A stretch of DNA of 46,842 nucleotides from Kineococcus sp. TRM81007 (GTDB lineage Bacteria; Actinomycetota; Actinomycetes; Actinomycetales; Kineococcaceae), in contig NZ_JALBVB010000050.1 of NCBI RefSeq assembly GCF_022669155.1, positions 56,318-103,159 on the forward strand, in the 5' to 3' direction. The position numbers were made by a program, and so were the translations under genes. Numbering within the stretch: the first letter of the stretch is position 1; each line of letters starts with the position of its first letter. Positions 9,489 through 18,509 of this stretch are shown here, piece by piece. The notes under the pieces are model-generated. The model did no database searches. It was not told the DNA's origin and worked only from the letters and a program-made list of their open reading frames with translations.

Positions 9489-10157
9489 TCAGGCGGTGGT
9501 CGTGGCGGTCGGCTCGGCGGTCGGGCTGGCGGTCGGCTCAGCGGTCGGCTCAGCGGTGGGCTCAGCGGTGGGCTCAGCGGTGGGTTCGCCACCCTCCTCC
9601 CCGTCGCCCTCGCCGCTGTCGGCGCTGACGCGGGTGGCGGTGGGGCCGTCGGTGCCGCGGGTGCCCTTGAGGTTGACGTGGTCGCCGACGGCGATCCCGG
9701 CCAGTTCGGCCGGGGCGTCGTCGCGGACGATCTTCGCGCCCTCGGCGACGGTCACGGTGAACTCCGTGCCGCGCAGGTCCTTGGCGCGGCCGCCGCGCAC
9801 GGTGATCGTCAGGGTGCGCGCGGCGGTGTCGACGGCGCTGACCGTGCCGTGGACGACGAGGACGTTCTTGGCGCCGCGGGAGCCGCGGGTGATGCGCGGG
9901 GCCGGGGCGCTGGTGCTCGTGGCGGTCGGCGTGGCGGTGGGGGCGCCGGTCGGGGTCGCCGTGGGCTCCGCGGTGGCGGTGGGCTCCGCGGTGGCGGTGG
10001 GCTCCGCGGTGGCGGTGGGCTCCGCGGTGGCGGTGGCCGTCGCGGTGGGGCTCGCCGTCGGCTTCGCCTTGGGTGCCGCGAGCGCGGCGCCGGTGGTGGG
10101 CACGGCCAGGGCCGCGGCGAGGACGGCGGTGAGGGTGAGGGTGGTGGTGCGGCGCAA
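9489..10157 (-). CDS. Secreted Pro/Thr/Glu-repeat protein with a DUF5666-like core
   Basis: A 222-residue exported protein. It has a Sec signal peptide (about 1-28, ending near GAALAAPKA), an AEPTAT-repeat stalk, a folded core of about 75 residues (VLVVHGTVSAVDTAARTLTI... VGDHVNLKGT) resembling DUF5666/OB-type beta domains, and a C-terminal AEPT repeat tail. No sortase motif or membrane anchor is seen. The start is TTG at 10157, preceded by AGGAGGA at 7 bases; this is the only start that gives a clean signal peptide. The Shine-Dalgarno lies directly against the 3' end of a cyclic-di-GMP riboswitch, so expression is likely tuned by that second messenger. A matrix or surface role is plausible. 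Confidence 0.82.
   Translation of the reverse strand: MRRTTTLTLTAVLAAALAVPTTGAALAAPKAKPTASPTATATATAEPTATAEPTATAEPTATAEPTATPTGAPTATPTATSTSAPAPRITRGSRGAKNVLVVHGTVSAVDTAARTLTITVRGGRAKDLRGTEFTVTVAEGAKIVRDDAPAELAGIAVGDHVNLKGTRGTDGPTATRVSADSGEGDGEEGGEPTAEPTAEPTAEPTAEPTASPTAEPTATTTA
9535..9582 (-). repeat. Four 12-bp tandem repeats (AEPT tail)
   Basis: Four 12-base units, the last three identical, encode the Ala-Glu-Pro-Thr tail of the secreted repeat protein. Copy number changes would keep the reading frame. Confidence 0.85.
9963..10034 (-). repeat. Four identical 18-bp tandem repeats (stalk)
   Basis: Four identical 18-base units encode the six-residue Thr-Ala-Glu-Pro-Thr-Ala repeat of the N-terminal stalk. 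Perfect identity suggests recent expansion. Confidence 0.88.
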
Positions 10158-10170
10158 CGTTCTTCCTCCT

Positions 10171-10245
10171 GGGTAGCCGGGCCGCCTCAGCGGGTGAGGC
10201 CCCTGTGCTTTGCGTCCCCGCCTCGCGGCGGGTTTGCCCTTGTCC
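10171..10245 (-). promoter_or_regulatory. Cyclic-di-GMP-I (GEMM-I) riboswitch
   Basis: The minus-strand leader holds the GEMM-I landmarks in order: GGGCAAACC, a GC-rich P2 hairpin, GGGACGCAAAGCACAGGGGCC, a second hairpin (CCTCACCCGCTGAGG), and GGCCCGGCTACC, which closes the aptamer. The AGGAGG of the downstream TTG gene begins immediately after it, which favours control of translation initiation. A further 9-bp hairpin (10246-10269) lies just upstream. The call rests on motif recognition; covariance-model scoring would settle it. Confidence 0.85.
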
Positions 10246-10309
10246 GGTGGGCACGTGGAGGTGCCCACCGCCCACCGTGCGGGACGGGAGGGGGTGGTGT
10301 CGAGCGGCC

Positions 10310-11886: not shown

Positions 11887-12234
11887 TCACCCCGCGGCCA
11901 CCACCCGCACCACCCCGGTCATGTGCGGGTGGACGCTGCACACGTAGGGGTGCTCACCGGCCGCGGTGAAGGTGTGGCGGAAGGTGCCGCCCCCGACGAT
12001 GCCGCTGTCGAAGCCGTCACCCCGCACCTGGTGCAGGATCCCCCCGTCGTCGAAGACCCACTCGACCGCGTCGCCGCTGCGGACCTCGACCTCGGCGGGG
12101 TCGAAGGCGATGTCCCGCACCACGACGCTGACCGCCGGCGGTGCCGGCGCCGCCGCGCTCCCCCGCCCGCAGGACGCGGCGGCGGCCGCGCCCGGGGCCG
12201 TCAGCAGCGCTCCCAGCAGCGCCCGGCGCCTCAC
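11887..12234 (-). CDS. Amicyanin-like cupredoxin, copy 2
   Basis: A 115-residue exported type 1 blue copper protein. Copper ligands are visible as His 68 (ILHQV), Cys 99, His 102 and Met 105 in YVCSVHPHMTG. The Arg-rich N-terminus and the Cys at position 22 suggest an exported lipoprotein, though the lipobox (AASC) is weak. The GTG at 12234 overlaps the stop of cupredoxin copy 1 by 4 bases. The two share the WVFDDGG...H core and are clear paralogues of the same length. In mau systems amicyanin (MauC) accepts electrons from methylamine dehydrogenase, which is the likely role here. It appears to be the last gene of the mau transcription unit. Confidence 0.88.
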   Translation of the reverse strand: MRRRALLGALLTAPGAAAAASCGRGSAAAPAPPAVSVVVRDIAFDPAEVEVRSGDAVEWVFDDGGILHQVRGDGFDSGIVGGGTFRHTFTAAGEHPYVCSVHPHMTGVVRVVAAG

Positions 12235-12578
12235 CCCTCGACGGTGACCGTGCCGGTCATGTCCGGGTGGGGGGTGCAGTGGTAGCCGAACTCCCCCGCC
12301 TCGGTGAACGTGTACGTGTAGGTGCCGCTGGTCAGCAGTTCGCTCTCCAGGCCGGGCAGGTCGTCGCCCACGACGTCGTGCGGCATGCCGCCGTCGTCGA
12401 AGACCCACTCGACGGTCTGGCCCTCCTGCACGGTGATCTCCGCGGGCGTGAACCGCATGTCCTTCACCTCCACGCGCACCACCGGCTGGCCGTCGCCGTC
12501 GGCCACGGCGTCGCTGCCGCCGCAGGCGGTCAGGGACGCGGCCAGCAGCAGGGCGGGGAGGAGGACGGGCTTCTTCAC
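12231..12578 (-). CDS. mauC: Amicyanin-like cupredoxin lipoprotein, copy 1 (MauC-like)
   Basis: A 115-residue lipoprotein cupredoxin. The signal peptide ends in the lipobox LTAC (Cys 19). Copper ligands are His 67 (GMPHDV), Cys 101, His 104 and Met 107 in YHCTPHPDMTG, which is almost the amicyanin signature. Amicyanin carries electrons out of methylamine dehydrogenase. I prefer the GTG at 12578, which follows GAGAGG at 7 bases; an ATG at 12593 that overlaps the oxidase stop is an alternative adding five residues. It sits directly after the multicopper oxidase and before its paralogue. Lipid anchoring suits an organism with no periplasm. Confidence 0.88.
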   Translation of the reverse strand: MKKPVLLPALLLAASLTACGGSDAVADGDGQPVVRVEVKDMRFTPAEITVQEGQTVEWVFDDGGMPHDVVGDDLPGLESELLTSGTYTYTFTEAGEFGYHCTPHPDMTGTVTVEG

Positions 12579-12589
12579 GTGGGGACCTC

Positions 12590-14215
12590 TCATCGGACGT
12601 AGCGCATGTTGGCCGTCATGCCGGCCTCGAAGTGGTAGACGTTGTGGCAGTGGAACATCCACTCACCGGGGTTGTCGGCGTCGAAGTCGATGCTCATCGA
12701 CTGCCCCGGCAGCACGAGGGCGGTGTCCTTGCGCAGCCCGCCGTACTCGGGGATCGCGAAGGTGTGCCCGTGGGTGTGCATCGGGTGCCACATGGACGTG
12801 GTGTTGTTCATGGTGATGCGGACGCGCTCGCCCTCGCGCATGACGAGGTTCCCGGCGTCGGCTCCCGCCATGCCCCAGGCGTACCGGCCCTCGACCTCGA
12901 TGAGGTCGATCGAGTAGGAGCGGTCGGGTTCGCGCTGCTCCAGCACGGACCGGGCGGCGGGGCGCATCGCGCTCTCCAGCACCAGCCGGCCGGACAGTTC
13001 CGGCAGGTCCGGCACCGTGGCGAGGGAACCGGCGGAGCCGGTGGCGTCCCGGGTGCGCAGGACGGCGGCGGCGTGCCCGCTGCGGCCCTCGACCACCGCC
13101 ACGACGGGCCAGGCGCCCGAGCGCGCCGTGACGAGCACGTCGTAGCGCTGCGCCGACCCGATGACGAGGGCGTCGGTGACCACGGGTTCCACGTCGAAGC
13201 CGTCCGCCGCGATCACGGTCATCTCGTGCCCGGCCACCGCGACGCGGTAGGCGGTCTCGGCGGCGGCGTTGACCAGGCGCAGGCGCACGCGGGCGCCCGG
13301 TGCGGCCTCCAGGACGGCGGGGTCCTCGGGGGGACGGCCGTTGACCAGGTGCAGCGGGTAGGTGATGTGCCCCGTCATGCCGCCGAGCGCGTCGGAACGG
13401 CCGTGGTCGCCCGCGACGAGGCCGGCGGCGGTCGCGGCCTCGCTCGCCGAGGGGGTGGCCGGCGCGGCGGCGCCGTGACCGGCGTGGCCGGCGTGGCCGC
13501 CGTGCCCGCCCGTGAGCGCGGGGTTCAGCGCCTGCAGGACGGCGTCCGGGGTGGTCCCCAGCCCGTCGACCCAGTCGTCGAGGACGACGACGAACTCCTC
13601 GTCGGCACCGGAGGAGTCCTCGGGGTCCTCCACGACCAGCGGGCCGAGCATCGCCCGGTCGGACTGCATCCCGGAGTGCGAGTGGTACCAGTAGGTCCCC
13701 GGGTCGGGGACGATGAAGTCGTACGTGAACTCCGCGCCGGGGGCGATCGCCTCCTGGGTCGCGGGCGCGGCGCCGTCCATGTCGTTGCGGCAGGCGATGC
13801 CGTGCCAGTGCACCGTGGTGCTCTCGGCGAGCTCGTTGCGGACGACGGCCCGCAACCGGTCACCGCGCCCGACGCGGATCTCCGGGGCGGCCAGGCCGTC
13901 GCCGTACACCCACGTGTCCACGGCGCGTCCGGCGAGGTCCACGGTCGCCGCCCGCGCGACGAGGCCGACCTCGACGGTGCGCCCGGAGGCGCTGCGGCGG
14001 GCCTCGGCGGCGGCGACCTCGGGGTCGGTCGCGGCCACGAGGTCCAGGGCGGGTGCGCTGGGGCCGGGATCGGCCCGTCCCTCGCTGCCGCAGCCAGCGA
14101 GCGCGACCCCGGTGCCGGCCGCCCCGGCGAGCAGCAGGCCGCGACGGCCCACGAGGGGTCCTGCCGGCAGCAGCGGGGAGCGTCCCCACCGCTGCCGGCG
14201 GGCGGCTGCCCTCAT
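12590..14215 (-). CDS. Tat-exported multicopper oxidase lipoprotein
   Basis: A 541-residue laccase-like oxidase that should couple one-electron oxidation of a donor to reduction of O2 to water. All four copper motifs are present: TVHWHG, TYWYHSH, HPMHTHGH and HCHNVYHFEAGM, the last giving the type 1 Cys, His and axial Met. A twin-arginine signal (GRRGLLLAG) and lipobox LAGC (Cys 42) predict export folded and lipid-anchored. A His-rich loop (GGHGGHAGHAGHG) may hold extra copper. The ATG at 14215 overlaps the mauB stop by 4 bases. Lying between mauB and two cupredoxins, it could be the terminal oxidase for electrons leaving MADH, or could take part in TTQ maturation. Both are inference. Confidence 0.92.
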   Translation of the reverse strand: MRAAARRQRWGRSPLLPAGPLVGRRGLLLAGAAGTGVALAGCGSEGRADPGPSAPALDLVAATDPEVAAAEARRSASGRTVEVGLVARAATVDLAGRAVDTWVYGDGLAAPEIRVGRGDRLRAVVRNELAESTTVHWHGIACRNDMDGAAPATQEAIAPGAEFTYDFIVPDPGTYWYHSHSGMQSDRAMLGPLVVEDPEDSSGADEEFVVVLDDWVDGLGTTPDAVLQALNPALTGGHGGHAGHAGHGAAAPATPSASEAATAAGLVAGDHGRSDALGGMTGHITYPLHLVNGRPPEDPAVLEAAPGARVRLRLVNAAAETAYRVAVAGHEMTVIAADGFDVEPVVTDALVIGSAQRYDVLVTARSGAWPVVAVVEGRSGHAAAVLRTRDATGSAGSLATVPDLPELSGRLVLESAMRPAARSVLEQREPDRSYSIDLIEVEGRYAWGMAGADAGNLVMREGERVRITMNNTTSMWHPMHTHGHTFAIPEYGGLRKDTALVLPGQSMSIDFDADNPGEWMFHCHNVYHFEAGMTANMRYVR

Positions 14216-15537
14216 CCGCGGGCCTCGGGCGCGAGCAGGCCGGACACGTCGTCGACGTTGCCGGTGACCTCGACCGAGCTCTTCTCGGTGCCGGTGGCGG
14301 CGTCGAACCCCTTGAGCAGGGTCGGTGCCTCCCCGTCGGCCTCGGGGCCCTCCCCCAGCACGTAGAGGGTGGTGCCGGCGGTGTCGAACGCGAAGGAGTC
14401 CAGGGAGCTCATCCCCAGGGACTCCAGCGTCAGGGTCGCCACCGGGTCCAGGCCGGCCGCGTCGCGCAGCTGCACCTGCACGACGTCGCCGCCGCGGGCG
14501 GAGTGCGGGTGGACGGCGCTGTCGGTGTAGGCGACGGCGATGCGCGTGGCGTCCGCGTTCACGGCCGTGTCCGCGAACCGGCCGGAGTCGACGCCGACGT
14601 TGCCCAGGGGCGCCTGGGGCTGCTCGGGCAGACCCCGGGAGAAGTCGAACAGGTAGGCGTCGCCGTTCGCGCCCACCAGCAGCCCGGCGTCCACGGCCCC
14701 GGCGGTGCTGGCCTCCCGGTTGCTGACGAAGTCCTCGGGCAGGACCTCGGCGCGGCCGGCTTCGACGGGCACGCCGTCCTCGCCGATGGTGATGCGCACG
14801 AGTTCCCGGGAACCCTCGCAGACGGAGTAGACGTCGTGGCCCACGACCCACGTGAAGGGGCCGCACCCGACGAGCGGCAGCATGCCGCTCTGCTCACCGG
14901 CCGCCAGGTCCACGACGCGCAGGCCGTACATGCCGTCGTCCCAGGTCACGAAGTACTGGCGGTCGGCCGTGACGGCGTGCGAACCGTCGCGGGAGTGGAC
15001 CCGCGCGGTGTCGGGCAGCTCGATCTCCTGCGGGTCCAGGAGGTCCCCGGAGTAGCGCGAGACGACGAAGTCGGCCTGCCCGCGGTTCCCGCGGGGTCGC
15101 CACACCTCGGCGGCCAGCACCGCGGGCTCGTCGGAGGACTCGGTGACGAAGGCGTGCACGACCGGGTCCCAGATCCCGGGGCCGGTGGCGATGCGCGACT
15201 CCACGACACCGGTGGCCGGGTCGACGACGTCCCACACGTACTCCAGACCGCCGGAGCCGCTCTCCCGGGTGACCATGCGGTCGGCGGGGACCGGGGGGAT
15301 CTCGCTGACGTGCAGCGGTTCGGGGATCGTGTCGCCGATCTCCTGGTCGTTCGCGCCGAGGGAGATCCCCTCCCCCGGCGTGGTGTACGGCGGCGGGCTG
15401 AACGTCGGTTCGCCGGCGGCCGGCGCGGCCGCCGCGGCGGATCCGGCCGGTTCGTCGTCGCCGGTGCAGCCGGTCGCCAGGACCACCGCCACCAGGGGCG
15501 CGGCCAGCGCCGCGGCGCGTGCTCTGCTGAGCTTCAC
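14212..15537 (-). CDS. mauB: Amine dehydrogenase large subunit (MauB-like lipoprotein)
   Basis: A 441-residue exported beta-propeller protein resembling the heavy chain of methylamine dehydrogenase. Supporting stretches include WDVVDPATGVVESRI and a Cys pair in GCGPFTWVVGHDVYSVCEGS, which matches the equivalent propeller blade of MauB as I recall it. The length is close to that of known heavy chains. The N-terminus is a signal peptide with a lipoprotein-like Cys 24 (VLATGC), so the enzyme is probably tethered to the outer face of the membrane. The GTG at 15537 has AAAGG upstream. A 14-bp hairpin separates it from the mauF-like gene. Substrate (methylamine or a larger amine) cannot be told from sequence by eye. 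Confidence 0.85.
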   Translation of the reverse strand: MKLSRARAAALAAPLVAVVLATGCTGDDEPAGSAAAAAPAAGEPTFSPPPYTTPGEGISLGANDQEIGDTIPEPLHVSEIPPVPADRMVTRESGSGGLEYVWDVVDPATGVVESRIATGPGIWDPVVHAFVTESSDEPAVLAAEVWRPRGNRGQADFVVSRYSGDLLDPQEIELPDTARVHSRDGSHAVTADRQYFVTWDDGMYGLRVVDLAAGEQSGMLPLVGCGPFTWVVGHDVYSVCEGSRELVRITIGEDGVPVEAGRAEVLPEDFVSNREASTAGAVDAGLLVGANGDAYLFDFSRGLPEQPQAPLGNVGVDSGRFADTAVNADATRIAVAYTDSAVHPHSARGGDVVQVQLRDAAGLDPVATLTLESLGMSSLDSFAFDTAGTTLYVLGEGPEADGEAPTLLKGFDAATGTEKSSVEVTGNVDDVSGLLAPEARG

Positions 15538-15601: not shown

Positions 15602-16423
15602 TCACAGCACCGCTGCCGCTGCGGCGCCGGCCAGCAGCGCCAGGGCCGCCCCGCCCAGCAGGCGGGCGGGGTTGTCCAGCAGGAGCGTGCGCCCCAGGTG
15701 CCGGTCGAGCTCCCCGCGGCGGGCGCTGGGGAGCGCCGCCCAGGAGGAGACCGTGCGCCCCAGGGCCATCAGGGCCCAGCCCAGGGCTCCCCACCACGGG
15801 GAGCCGGCGAGCAGGACGGCGAGGGTGAGCAGGTAGAAGGCGGTGGTGCGGATGAAGATGAGGTACCCGGGGCCGATGAGGGCACCGAACCCGAGGGCGA
15901 CCAGGCGCGGCTGGTACCGGCGCCGCCACCCCGCCGGGACCTGCCGGGAGCGCTGCGGGTGGGGCAGGGTGACCAGGCGCATCTCGTGCAGCGCGTACGC
16001 GGCGGCGACCGCGGCCCAGCCGAGGAAGCCCCACGACGTCGGGACGCGCGCGACGAGGTCCTGCAGGACCCCGCCGAGCGCACCGACCGCGGCTCCCGTG
16101 GGGATCGCCGTGAGCAGCAGTCCCAGCGTGTACCAGAGGATCCGTCGTGCGGGTGTCGAGCGCCCGCGGACCGCGGGCTTGGGCGCCACCGTGGTGGCGA
16201 CCAGCGAGTAGCCTCAAGGCGACCAGCTGGCCCCGATCCCCGAGAGCAGCGCGGCGGGCAGGACGAGCAGTCCCCACGAGGGGTGCGGCTCCACCAGCGC
16301 CGCCAGGACCAGCCCCGCCACCAGCGCCGACGCCCACGCACCGAGCCTGGCCCGGCGGCCGTACGCCGCCGCGACGGGGGGTTTCGAGAACGCCTGCGCC
16401 GGGCGCGTGCCGGAGGGGATCAC
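15602..16423 (-). CDS. mauF: MauF-like membrane protein interrupted by one in-frame TGA
   Basis: One reading frame of 273 codons holds a single TGA at codon 70 (16214-16216). Codons 1-69 start with GTG overlapping the mauA stop and encode two membrane helices. Codons 71-273 continue in the same frame with about five more helices and no other stop. The context is GASWSP-TGA-GYSLVATT. The CcdA/DsbD-type redox membrane family has 'SPC' at this kind of position, so the missing residue is plausibly Cys or selenocysteine. Place in the operon, length and topology fit MauF, needed for MADH maturation, although I cannot align it. Alternatives are a nonsense mutation, a sequencing error, or two cistrons with re-initiation at GTG 16189, which has no Shine-Dalgarno. 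Confidence 0.7.
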
Positions 16424-17103
16424 GCCCCGGCACCGACCTTGGGCCGGGCCGCCGGCCGGGGGGTGCAGTCCTCACCGATGATCGGCGCCATGGTGCAGGT
16501 GTAGGACTGCGACTCGTCGGAGACGCACCAGATGATCTCCTGGTCGTAGCTGCCGGAGACCGGGTTGTACATGACGGCCTGCGCGTCGGGTTCACCGCAG
16601 TAGTTCGTCGAGCACGAGGAGGCGCCGCAGCAGTCGTAGTAGGCGATGAGGTACGTCTTGCCGGTGGTGGGCTCGGTGCAGCACCCCACCCAGAACTCCG
16701 CGCCCGGCTTGCTGCCGGGGGCGCAGGTGGTCACCCCCCCGCCCGTGCAGGAGGAGCACGGGCGGCCGTCCATGTTGCACCAGCGCCAGTACTCGCACTC
16801 GGCGGGGTTGCCGCCGTCGTAGACGGGCAGCAGGGGCTCGGTGCCCGGTGCGGCCGGTGCCCCCGGTGCCGCCTGCGCGGACCGGGTGACGGGCAGCGCA
16901 CCGATCATCGCCACCCCCGTCAGGCCCATCGTCCAGGCGCCCAGCTTGCCCAGGGCCGAGCGGCGCGAGACGCGCTCGGACAACCGCCGGGCCACCCTGC
17001 TGGTGCGGGTGCCGCCCTGGCCCGCCAGCCAGTCCGCCTGCTCCTGCACGGTCCTCTCGTCGACGGCGAACTTCTTCTCGTGGGTCTCGTCGGGGTCTCG
17101 CAC
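16420..17103 (-). CDS. mauA: TTQ amine dehydrogenase small subunit (MauA)
   Basis: A 227-residue precursor of the catalytic beta subunit carrying the tryptophan tryptophylquinone (TTQ) cofactor. A long Tat leader (VSRRSALGKLGAW, ending near AQAAP at 80) is typical of MauA. Aligned by eye with Paracoccus MauA, Trp 138 and Trp 192 match TTQ-forming Trp57 and Trp108. Asp 112 (CNMDG) matches Asp32, Asp 157 (YYDCCG) matches Asp76, and Thr 204 (YTCTMAPIIG) matches Thr122. The mature part has 14 Cys against 12 in Paracoccus; the extras are the second Cys of GCC and the one in GEDC. The GTG start at 17103 follows AGAGGAG. It is downstream of mauE and mauD and overlaps the mauF-like gene. Confidence 0.93.
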   Translation of the reverse strand: MRDPDETHEKKFAVDERTVQEQADWLAGQGGTRTSRVARRLSERVSRRSALGKLGAWTMGLTGVAMIGALPVTRSAQAAPGAPAAPGTEPLLPVYDGGNPAECEYWRWCNMDGRPCSSCTGGGVTTCAPGSKPGAEFWVGCCTEPTTGKTYLIAYYDCCGASSCSTNYCGEPDAQAVMYNPVSGSYDQEIIWCVSDESQSYTCTMAPIIGEDCTPRPAARPKVGAGA

Positions 17104-17161: not shown

Positions 17162-17770
17162 TCAGCCGGCGAGCTCCACCCGGGCGTCGCGGTGCAGGTG
17201 CTGCACGGAGGGGGTGCCGGTCTCCAGGGCGTTGAGCAGGCTCTCCACCTGCTGCAGGTGGTTGCACAGGCCCTTGGCCCGGATGACTCCGTGCTCGTCG
17301 AGGACGACGCCGTAGGGGGTGGTGCCCACCTGGTAGGCGACGCCCACGTCGCGGGCGTCGACGTAGCTGAGCTCGTCGGAGATCCTCCCGGCGGCGAGGA
17401 ACGCGGCGTGCTCCTCGGGCGTGCCGTCGGAGACCATGACGACCTCCAGGTCCCGCTCGGCCCGCGCCAGGGCGCGGATCCCCGGCAGCAGGCTCTTGCA
17501 GGTCGAGCAGTTGGGCCCGGTGAACATCAGCAGCTGCGACTTGCCGCGGTGACCGCCGACGCTCACGGTGCGGCCGAGGTGGTCGGTCAGCCCGCTGAAC
17601 GCCGGGCCGGTCTCCTCGACCTTCGGGCCGGAGTCCATCATCCGGGCGCCGAGCGGCCCCAGGCGAACCTGCACCCGGCCGACCTCGCGGGCCAGCGCGA
17701 GCACCATCAGCAGCAGCCCGGTCACCGCCAGGGTCAGCACGCCGGTCATCACGAGCAGGAACGTGGTCAT
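17162..17770 (-). CDS. mauD: MauD-like membrane-anchored thioredoxin-fold protein
   Basis: A 202-residue protein with one N-terminal membrane helix (about 3-28) and an external thioredoxin-like domain. The redox motif is CSTC (Cys 88, Cys 91) in TGPNCSTCKSLLPG. In known mau clusters MauD and MauE are needed for export and disulfide formation of the cysteine-rich MauA subunit; with seven possible disulfides in this MauA such help is to be expected. The ATG at 17770 has GAGGAAG upstream; the longer reading to 18142 is only a shadow of mauE. It lies between mauE and mauA, the usual E-D-A order. Confidence 0.9.
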   Translation of the reverse strand: MTTFLLVMTGVLTLAVTGLLLMVLALAREVGRVQVRLGPLGARMMDSGPKVEETGPAFSGLTDHLGRTVSVGGHRGKSQLLMFTGPNCSTCKSLLPGIRALARAERDLEVVMVSDGTPEEHAAFLAAGRISDELSYVDARDVGVAYQVGTTPYGVVLDEHGVIRAKGLCNHLQQVESLLNALETGTPSVQHLHRDARVELAG

Positions 17771-17831
17771 CGGGGTCTTCCTCGTCTCGTCGCGCCCGCC
17801 GAACGGGCCGGGGAGTGGGGTTTCGGGAACC

Positions 17832-18422
17832 TCAGCGGGCGGTGCGGGCCAGGGCGGCGCGGTAGCGCACCGACGCGTCGGCGAGGTGGGTGTCCGCACG
17901 GGTGGGCCGGCGGTCCACGACGCGGGCGACGCGGGCCACCACCAGCGCCAGCAGCAGGACCACCACCGCCAGGCACGCGCCCTGGAACCTGTCGGCCGCC
18001 GCGGGGGCGGTGGGGGCTGCCAGCAGCAGAGCCGCGGAGGCCGCTGCGAGGGCAGCGGCGCGCAGGGCGTGCCACGGGCCGATGCGAGCCACCTCACCGG
18101 CGGGCGGGTCCGTGAAACCGAAGCAACCGCAGTCGATGTCACGACGCCCGCGGGCGAGGTTCACGACCAGCCCGGCGGTGAACGCCGCGAACAGGGCGGT
18201 GGCGGCCGCCGCGGCCGCCGGGGCGGCGACGCCGGCGACGAGGGCCGTTCCGGCGAGCACCTCTGCGACGGGCACGACGCGCGCCACGGGGCGGGTGAGG
18301 GCGCCCGGCAGGACGCGGAAACCCCGCACGACGCGCGAGAAGGCCCGCGGTGCGAGGAGTTTCGGGGTTCCGGCGAGGACGAGCACCAACCCCACGAAGG
18401 CGCTCACAGCGCTCCAGGCCAC
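17832..18422 (-). CDS. mauE: MauE-like DoxX-type membrane protein
   Basis: A 196-residue protein with four to six membrane helices and the MauE/DoxX-type redox motif CGCFG (Cys 98, Cys 100) in RDIDCGCFGF. MauE is thought to supply oxidising or reducing equivalents to MauD during MADH assembly. I chose the GTG at 18422 because AGAGGAGGG stands 6-7 bases before it and because the TetR-type palindrome (18439-18454) then falls just upstream. A GTG at 18470 would place the operator inside the gene. It is the first gene of the mau operon, divergent from the TetR regulator. The C-terminal 60 residues form one more helix and a basic tail. Confidence 0.88.
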   Translation of the reverse strand: MAWSAVSAFVGLVLVLAGTPKLLAPRAFSRVVRGFRVLPGALTRPVARVVPVAEVLAGTALVAGVAAPAAAAAATALFAAFTAGLVVNLARGRRDIDCGCFGFTDPPAGEVARIGPWHALRAAALAAASAALLLAAPTAPAAADRFQGACLAVVVLLLALVVARVARVVDRRPTRADTHLADASVRYRAALARTAR

Positions 18423-18438
18423 GGCTGCCCTCCTCTTC

Positions 18439-18454
18439 TTGAGCGATCGCTCAA
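18439..18454. promoter_or_regulatory. TetR-type operator of the mau operon
   Basis: TTGAGCGATCGCTCAA is a perfect 16-bp palindrome of the form often bound by TetR repressors. It lies immediately before the mauE Shine-Dalgarno and faces the divergent TetR gene, so binding should block mau transcription. Confidence 0.8.
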
Positions 18455-18509
18455 CACGCGGAACTCTCACGGCCCGGGGTTTCCCGACAGTGTCCCGTGT
18501 GTAAGGCCT

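Follow-up and report, generated by a model that had tools for sequence, protein, structure and literature searches.

A predicted selenocysteine form of MauF, widespread in Actinomycetota and followed by an unusual two-hairpin SECIS candidate

The window analyzed here, a stretch of 46,842 nucleotides from Kineococcus sp. TRM81007, carries a mau operon on its reverse strand with the gene order mauE, mauD, mauA, mauF, a mauB-like gene, a multicopper oxidase gene, and two small cupredoxin-like genes. The mauE gene (17832–18470, −; its start may be 18407) encodes a membrane protein with a CGC motif that matches PF07291 at E 2.1e-25. It is followed by mauD (17162–17779, −; a start at 17770 is equally likely), which encodes a membrane-anchored thioredoxin-like protein with a CSTC motif and is matched by TIGR02661 at E 9.1e-51 and 172 bits, below the cut-off of 188.6. 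The product of mauA (16420–17103, −), the methylamine/amine dehydrogenase light chain, has 14 Cys and a twin-arginine-like start, and it matches PF02975 (E 2.9e-29) and light chains of the PDB down to E 1.6e-33. Two of its Trp residues have Trp counterparts in the alignment with the known light chain, and we take them to form TTQ. Among 394 genomes of the class, PF02975 is found in only one, Kineococcus sp. TRM81007 itself. Downstream of mauF lies the mauB-like gene (14212–15537, −), which has a lipoprotein-like start and whose possible role as the heavy chain is read from its place alone; its product matched no Pfam, NCBIfam, or PDB sequence, and its single-sequence model is poor (pLDDT 42.1) and made mostly of strands. 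The multicopper oxidase gene (12590–14152, −; PF07732, E 9.1e-33) stands at the cluster end together with the two small cupredoxin-like genes (11887–12578, −), which were named from sequence. Elsewhere in the window, a c-di-GMP-I riboswitch (10169–10248, −; Rfam RF01051, 48.4 bits) lies directly upstream of a called gene (9489–10157) that has long low-complexity tracts.

The mauF gene (15602–16423, −; 273 codons and a stop) starts with a GTG that overlaps the mauA stop and is followed by the mauB-like gene, an operon place that an earlier note on this DNA had taken to fit MauF, and rightly so. As that note had also described, the frame from 16423 to 15602 is interrupted only by a TGA at 16214–16216 (−), codon 70, in the context SWSP-TGA-GYS, and this in-frame TGA is real. 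Codon usage is coding-like on both sides, with log-odds of 19 for the 69 codons before the TGA and 86 for the 195-codon piece after it. With a family profile from which the window sequence was left out, the C-terminal half scored E 2.9e-32 and the read-through product E 2.2e-38, and the N-terminal half, with E 2.2e-4, is weak alone (each E for a database of one). The view that the pieces on either side belong to one protein is borne out by the codon usage and by the score of the read-through product. This product, taken here as Sec-MauF, has no Cys at all besides the predicted selenocysteine (Sec).

When 72,556 plasmid records were searched by tblastn with the read-through product, 14 matched, every one of them annotated as MauF (E 3e-6 to 3e-2), and a profile made of MauF only matched the window product at E 4e-22 (database of one). 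Codon 70, whose counterpart in homologues the earlier note had wished to see, falls on the Cys of TWSPCGYS when six MauF proteins of Paracoccus, Methylobacterium, and Indioceanicola are aligned with it, and the Cys/Sec column is invariant in an alignment of 48 family members. The MauF proteins of these three genera are similar to the window protein along the chain, share the SPC/SPU-GYS motif, and have mauA, mauB, mauD, and mauE as neighbors, as in the window, where the light chain, MauD, and MauE are all present. They differ in having Cys where the window has the predicted Sec, with approximately 25%–28% identity to the window protein, and in the order of their operons, F-B-E-D as against E-D-A-F-B in the window. 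The Methylobacterium cluster also has a MauG gene, whereas no MauG family match was found in the genome of Kineococcus sp. TRM81007. In the MauF of Indioceanicola, the Cys of TWSPCGYS is the only Cys; as the window MauF has none, this site would hold the only thiol or selenol in the protein. Taking homology and operon membership together, the window gene is in all likelihood mauF, whose product is a membrane-bound helper in bacteria that use methylamine.

The search for selA, selB, selC, and selD proposed in the earlier note was fruitful: SelA, SelB, and tRNA-Sec were found in the genome, together on one contig (C59), along with a SelD-like ORF that is recognized by sequence only. Approximately 7 kb from this group lies fdhA with an in-frame UGA, and 18 nt past that UGA stands a hairpin loop of GGUCU.

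MauF-like genes with a TGA at the aligned position were found in 76 distinct genomes, the window genome included; for each TGA-form genome counted, the retrieved DNA was inspected to read the codon at this position. A first scan of genome contigs with the window protein found no relative, and a second one with alignment A1 gave eight loci. When 149 relatives (own genome included) were searched with the window protein, 14 other genomes were matched, 13 of them with TGA in the motif WSP-U-GESMLSS. The remaining match, 288 bases without TGA (L023 in G063), was dropped, as the A1 profile does not recover it. In the class, a profile search matched 43 of the 394 genomes, namely, 14 with TGA, two with Cys (WSPCG), and 27 weak ones that were excluded; 14 loci of the latter were fetched, of which 12 align as CcdA-like FFSPC. 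A wider profile matched 69 of 396 genomes of the phylum, comprising 56 with TGA, seven with Cys only, and six that were excluded owing to a run of N at the site (G758), as fragments (G687 and G776), or as weak matches (G540, G579, and G619). The members by name include Janibacter melonis, Phycicoccus, Kineosphaera limosa, and Pedococcus bigeumensis. In a quick tree of 63 members, four Sec/Cys changes are required, two of which follow of necessity from well-supported branches; the tree places the window weakly beside classical MauF (support 86). Sec-MauF, a family predicted from its recurrent TGA, is widespread and diversified in Actinomycetota.

SelA is present in 74 of the 76 TGA-form genomes, with an end fragment only in G697, and in none of the nine genomes that have the Cys form only; the two TGA-form genomes with no SelA match, G735 and G748, are 68% and 73% complete. 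Fisher tests, which carry no correction for shared ancestry, gave 2.0e-7 for the relatives, 3.7e-7 for the class, a figure that counts every above-cut-off SelA match with distant enzymes included, and 1.3e-10 for Sec versus Cys forms. One genome with SelA (G605) has a Cys MauF-like copy together with a Sec copy of another subfamily (L133, L157).

Sec insertion had been called attractive in the earlier note, which also allowed for a nonsense mutation or a sequencing error, leaving either a pseudogene or a true codon TGC or TGG. A draft assembly of 60 contigs and window hairpins that are off the published spacing would suit such an accident, but 75 other genomes share the TGA at this position, a recurrence that is not chance, and outside this codon the frame is unbroken and coding. 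Since SelA presence also tracks the Sec form, this reading is practically excluded and must be held very unlikely. The Cys alignment, the Sec machinery, the 75 other TGA genomes, and the co-occurrence with SelA argue instead for insertion, and UGA codon 70 almost certainly inserts selenocysteine; that the gene is mauF and that this codon inserts Sec is, as a joint claim, very probable. It is highly improbable that the UGA ends a short protein and that the GTG at 16189, nine codons past it, starts a separate C-terminal protein. ORF callers do give two such pieces, but MauF elsewhere is a single chain with Cys at the junction, the Cys forms of the family run unbroken through the site, and the TGA form accompanies SelA.

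Two hairpins follow the TGA in the window, and both were found as described in the earlier note (6 bp with CACG and 7 bp with GUC). Hairpin 1 (16182–16202, −; +12 to +32 after the TGA), composed of GG-bulged U-CGCCAC, the loop CACG, and GTGGCG-CC, was folded; it has a 6-bp stem with its CACG loop 20 nt after the TGA and is the counterpart of hairpin 1 of the family. Hairpin 2 (16162–16178, −; +36 to +52), the predicted SelB-binding SECIS, has a 7-bp stem of GCCCGCG and CGCGGGC with the loop GUC, lying within GGUCC, 42 nt after the TGA, and its GGUC core recurs in the loop of the fdhA hairpin of this genome. According to the available text of the source, the bSECIS rule comprises a spacing of 16–37 nt, a G in the first two loop bases, a loop of 3–9 nt, and an energy of ≤ −7.5, and some bSECIS elements depart from it (PMC13188914). 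In place of the bSECISearch suggested earlier, this published rule was applied in a script (82 rows for 81 loci, the window being entered twice). The rule is passed by 74 of the 81 family loci; of 1632 control positions taken downstream in these stretches, 401 pass it. The window itself fails it, the loop of hairpin 2 lying at 42 nt and hairpin 1 lacking a G among its first two loop bases, the same outcome as in the earlier note. Among the 74 passing loci, 71 have a spacing of 29–33 nt, and the commonest loops are GGUC (18), GGU (17), and GUC (14); the GUC loop of the window is 9 nt further from the TGA than in relatives with the same loop.

The arrangement recurs in 21 loci of group 2 (17 distinct sequences), in which the TGA precedes two hairpins, the first of 6 bp with a 4-nt loop and the second of 8 bp; the foot pair of this hairpin 2 is G-C in nine, C-G in seven, and A-U in one of the 17 sequences. 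Alignment A6 is restricted to the 59 distinct sequences with the PUG.SM motif, one row each, and lacks the most divergent loci as well as group 3 and the window. One base pair of hairpin 1 never mismatches in this alignment, being C-G in 39 sequences and G-C in 20. The covariation score of hairpin 1 is 0.245, compared with 0.083 for shuffled and at most 0.120 for slid versions, and pairing is found in 96.3% of cells for hairpin 1 and 76.9% for hairpin 2. In the ISPVGE part of the family, the sequences and the rule check give hairpin 2 in a shifted register with the loop GGUC. Synonymous codon identity after the TGA is 0.313 over 13 columns versus 0.077 over 59 others (permutation p 0.0002), and the Gly codon of the loop is GGT in 13 of 20 rows versus 47 of 511 background Gly codons. 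Folding energy is unexceptional: of 1000 synonymous variants of the stretch in the window, 35 are equally stable, and in L031, L032, L037, and L040 about half or more of such variants are. These energies being of little help, the case for the hairpins rests on covariation and codon conservation, by which the two predicted hairpins are kept across the family with compensatory changes. That the UGA is decoded as Trp or Cys by suppression, with no SECIS, finds support in the unusual spacing of the window hairpin and in nothing else found, and it is scarcely credible beside the compensatory changes in the paired hairpins and the presence of SelA in 74 of 76 TGA-form versus none of nine Cys-only genomes.

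Under Sec insertion, SelB with Sec-tRNA would bind the hairpin that carries the GGUC loop, and hairpin 1, standing in between, may help to bring this hairpin within reach of the ribosome. A two-hairpin SECIS of this kind, in which hairpin 1 places the SelB hairpin within reach while the spacing varies, is rated as fairly likely jointly with the maturation system proposed below.

The neighborhoods of the Sec loci bear on the role of the protein. A MauE- or MauD-like gene lies close to 30 of the 33 Sec loci read with wider flanks (the window, L065–L067, L068–L072, L073–L077, L080, L081, L162–L166, L169–L175, L176, L177, and L179–L181), L178 on a 3.1-kb contig of G738 being excluded from this count. 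The loci with no such neighbor are L069, L176, and L177, and the match in L173 is weak (E 1e-3). The MauE and MauD profiles were built from nine of the counted loci and the Cys locus L078, so that the independent count is 21 of 24. The Cys loci L078 and L079 keep the cluster, and the Cys loci L167 and L168 have no MauE- or MauD-like neighbor. In L166 (5936–7141, −), the C-terminal part of a Sec-MauF-like protein and a MauE domain (PF07291, E 2.2e-19) share one frame, a fusion that hints that the two may work together. Many Sec loci also encode a protein with 6 to 32 Cys and a twin-arginine-like start, the latter judged by eye with a single Pfam Tat match below the cut-off; examples of these Cys-rich partners have LGFP repeats, a peptidoglycan-binding domain, or a CWB2-like match below the cut-off. 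A conserved cluster of MauE-like, MauD-like, and Sec-MauF-like genes, a small protein of approximately 160 residues, and a Cys-rich protein, often with LGFP repeats, was seen in L065–L067, L073–L077, L080, L081, L163, L165, L170, L174, and L175; its protein of approximately 160 residues, tested in L074, has no Pfam match. In several loci of the MauE-like/MauD-like/Sec-MauF-like cluster, selA/selB are close by.

The AlphaFold2 model of MauF is helical with several membrane helices (pLDDT 84.8, pTM 0.80), and in this model a helix break falls at residues 67–68, directly before Sec70. Foldseek found no solved-fold match to the model at E ≤ 0.001, the best VIA-align match has Z 6.0 and an rmsd of 6.6 over 178 residues, and CcdA is not among the matches listed by either; no fold match thus backs a redox role. 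The likeness to DsbD/CcdA consists of the membrane nature of the protein, SP[C/U] at a helix break, and a weak match to PF13386 (DsbD/CcdA transmembrane), which is E 0.013 and 15.8 bits for the window, below the cut-off of 24.9, and E 2.2e-7 and 31.4 bits for the relative L013. In addition, 12 weak matches have a CcdA-like FFSPC whose Cys falls in the Sec column. CcdA needs a pair of Cys, whereas the window MauF has one redox residue only, other partners, and no solved-fold match found; with no Cys besides Sec, it lacks a redox Cys pair of the DsbD/CcdA type.

Two functional readings can be set against this background. In the first, which is possible on a tentative footing, Sec-MauF would move electrons inward-to-outward like CcdA/DsbD, for example, reducing a cofactor-making partner or an apo-protein; the weak PF13386 likeness, the aligned FFSPC Cys, and a genome with no MauG family match speak for it. 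Against it stand the single conserved Cys/Sec of MauF and the partners in other subfamilies, which are Cys-rich, some with cell-wall domains, and which suggest the handling of disulfides as a common task. In the second reading, rated as somewhat probable, MauF would form or shuffle disulfides of exported Cys-rich proteins. Sec70, in the membrane just behind the helix break (SP-U), would act as a lone selenol, since the window MauF has no Cys, and would join a Cys in MauE (CGC) or MauD (CxxC) through a mixed selenenyl-sulfide. MauF with MauE and MauD would then make or rearrange the numerous disulfides of MauA, relatives of MauF would perform the same task on other exported Cys-rich proteins, and Sec may speed up the MauF step or protect it against over-oxidation. 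In the disulfide reading, it is reasonably likely that Actinomycetota possess an unrecognized selenium-dependent maturation system made of Sec-MauF and MauE-/MauD-like partners. With similar moderate confidence, this system would serve disulfides of exported, Cys-rich, and partly cell-wall-binding proteins, the maturation of methylamine dehydrogenase being one branch.

Sec-MauF is a predicted Sec form of a known family, widespread and equipped with an unusual two-hairpin SECIS candidate, and it shares with known bacterial selenoproteins the UGA with a downstream hairpin, the Cys homologues, and SelA in the same genomes. In the available text of an inventory of 119 prokaryotic selenoprotein families and subfamilies, whose table includes the families of Haft and Tolstoy 2025 as reference 64, MauF is not in Table 1 (PMC13188914). 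The entry nearest by name in that text, TsoB (rhodanese/DsbD-fusion-like), has a UxxxxU motif, which MauF lacks. The inventory probably misses Sec-MauF because the UGA cuts the gene in annotation. Two NCBIfam scans found no model for Sec-MauF, and a literature search gave no MauF selenoprotein among the matches listed, including the available portions of PMC13188914, PMC5029168, PMC1794560, PMC12013277, PMC9312934, and PMC7794033.

In Streptomyces, decRiPPter clusters have MauE/MauD homologues beside Cys-rich precursors, for which a disulfide role was suggested, and the available text reports no other mau orthologues in them (PMC7794033). They resemble, as far as that text goes, the Sec-MauF loci in having MauE/MauD homologues next to Cys-rich proteins, and by analogy, a Sec-MauF hidden by its UGA could explain the missing orthologues. 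The findings may likewise explain why mau-like clusters look incomplete. They would add to Actinomycetota a widespread selenoprotein family, its TGA form being found in 56 of 396 sampled genomes of the phylum, give the little-understood MauF a precise active residue, and connect selenium with the way in which exported Cys-rich proteins of unknown function mature. A two-hairpin SECIS with differing spacing would also bear on the reach of bacterial SelB.

The five loci of group 3 (L037–L041) have a different Sec site, GSV-U-[ST]xNS in place of SP-U-G. The idea that Sec is shifted there by approximately eight residues was dropped because the MAFFT alignment has a shorter loop there and Sec in the common column; this stretch is ambiguous. 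MauE/MauD-like genes and small Cys-rich exported-type proteins adjoin four of these five loci, and L040 lies approximately 5 kb from selA.
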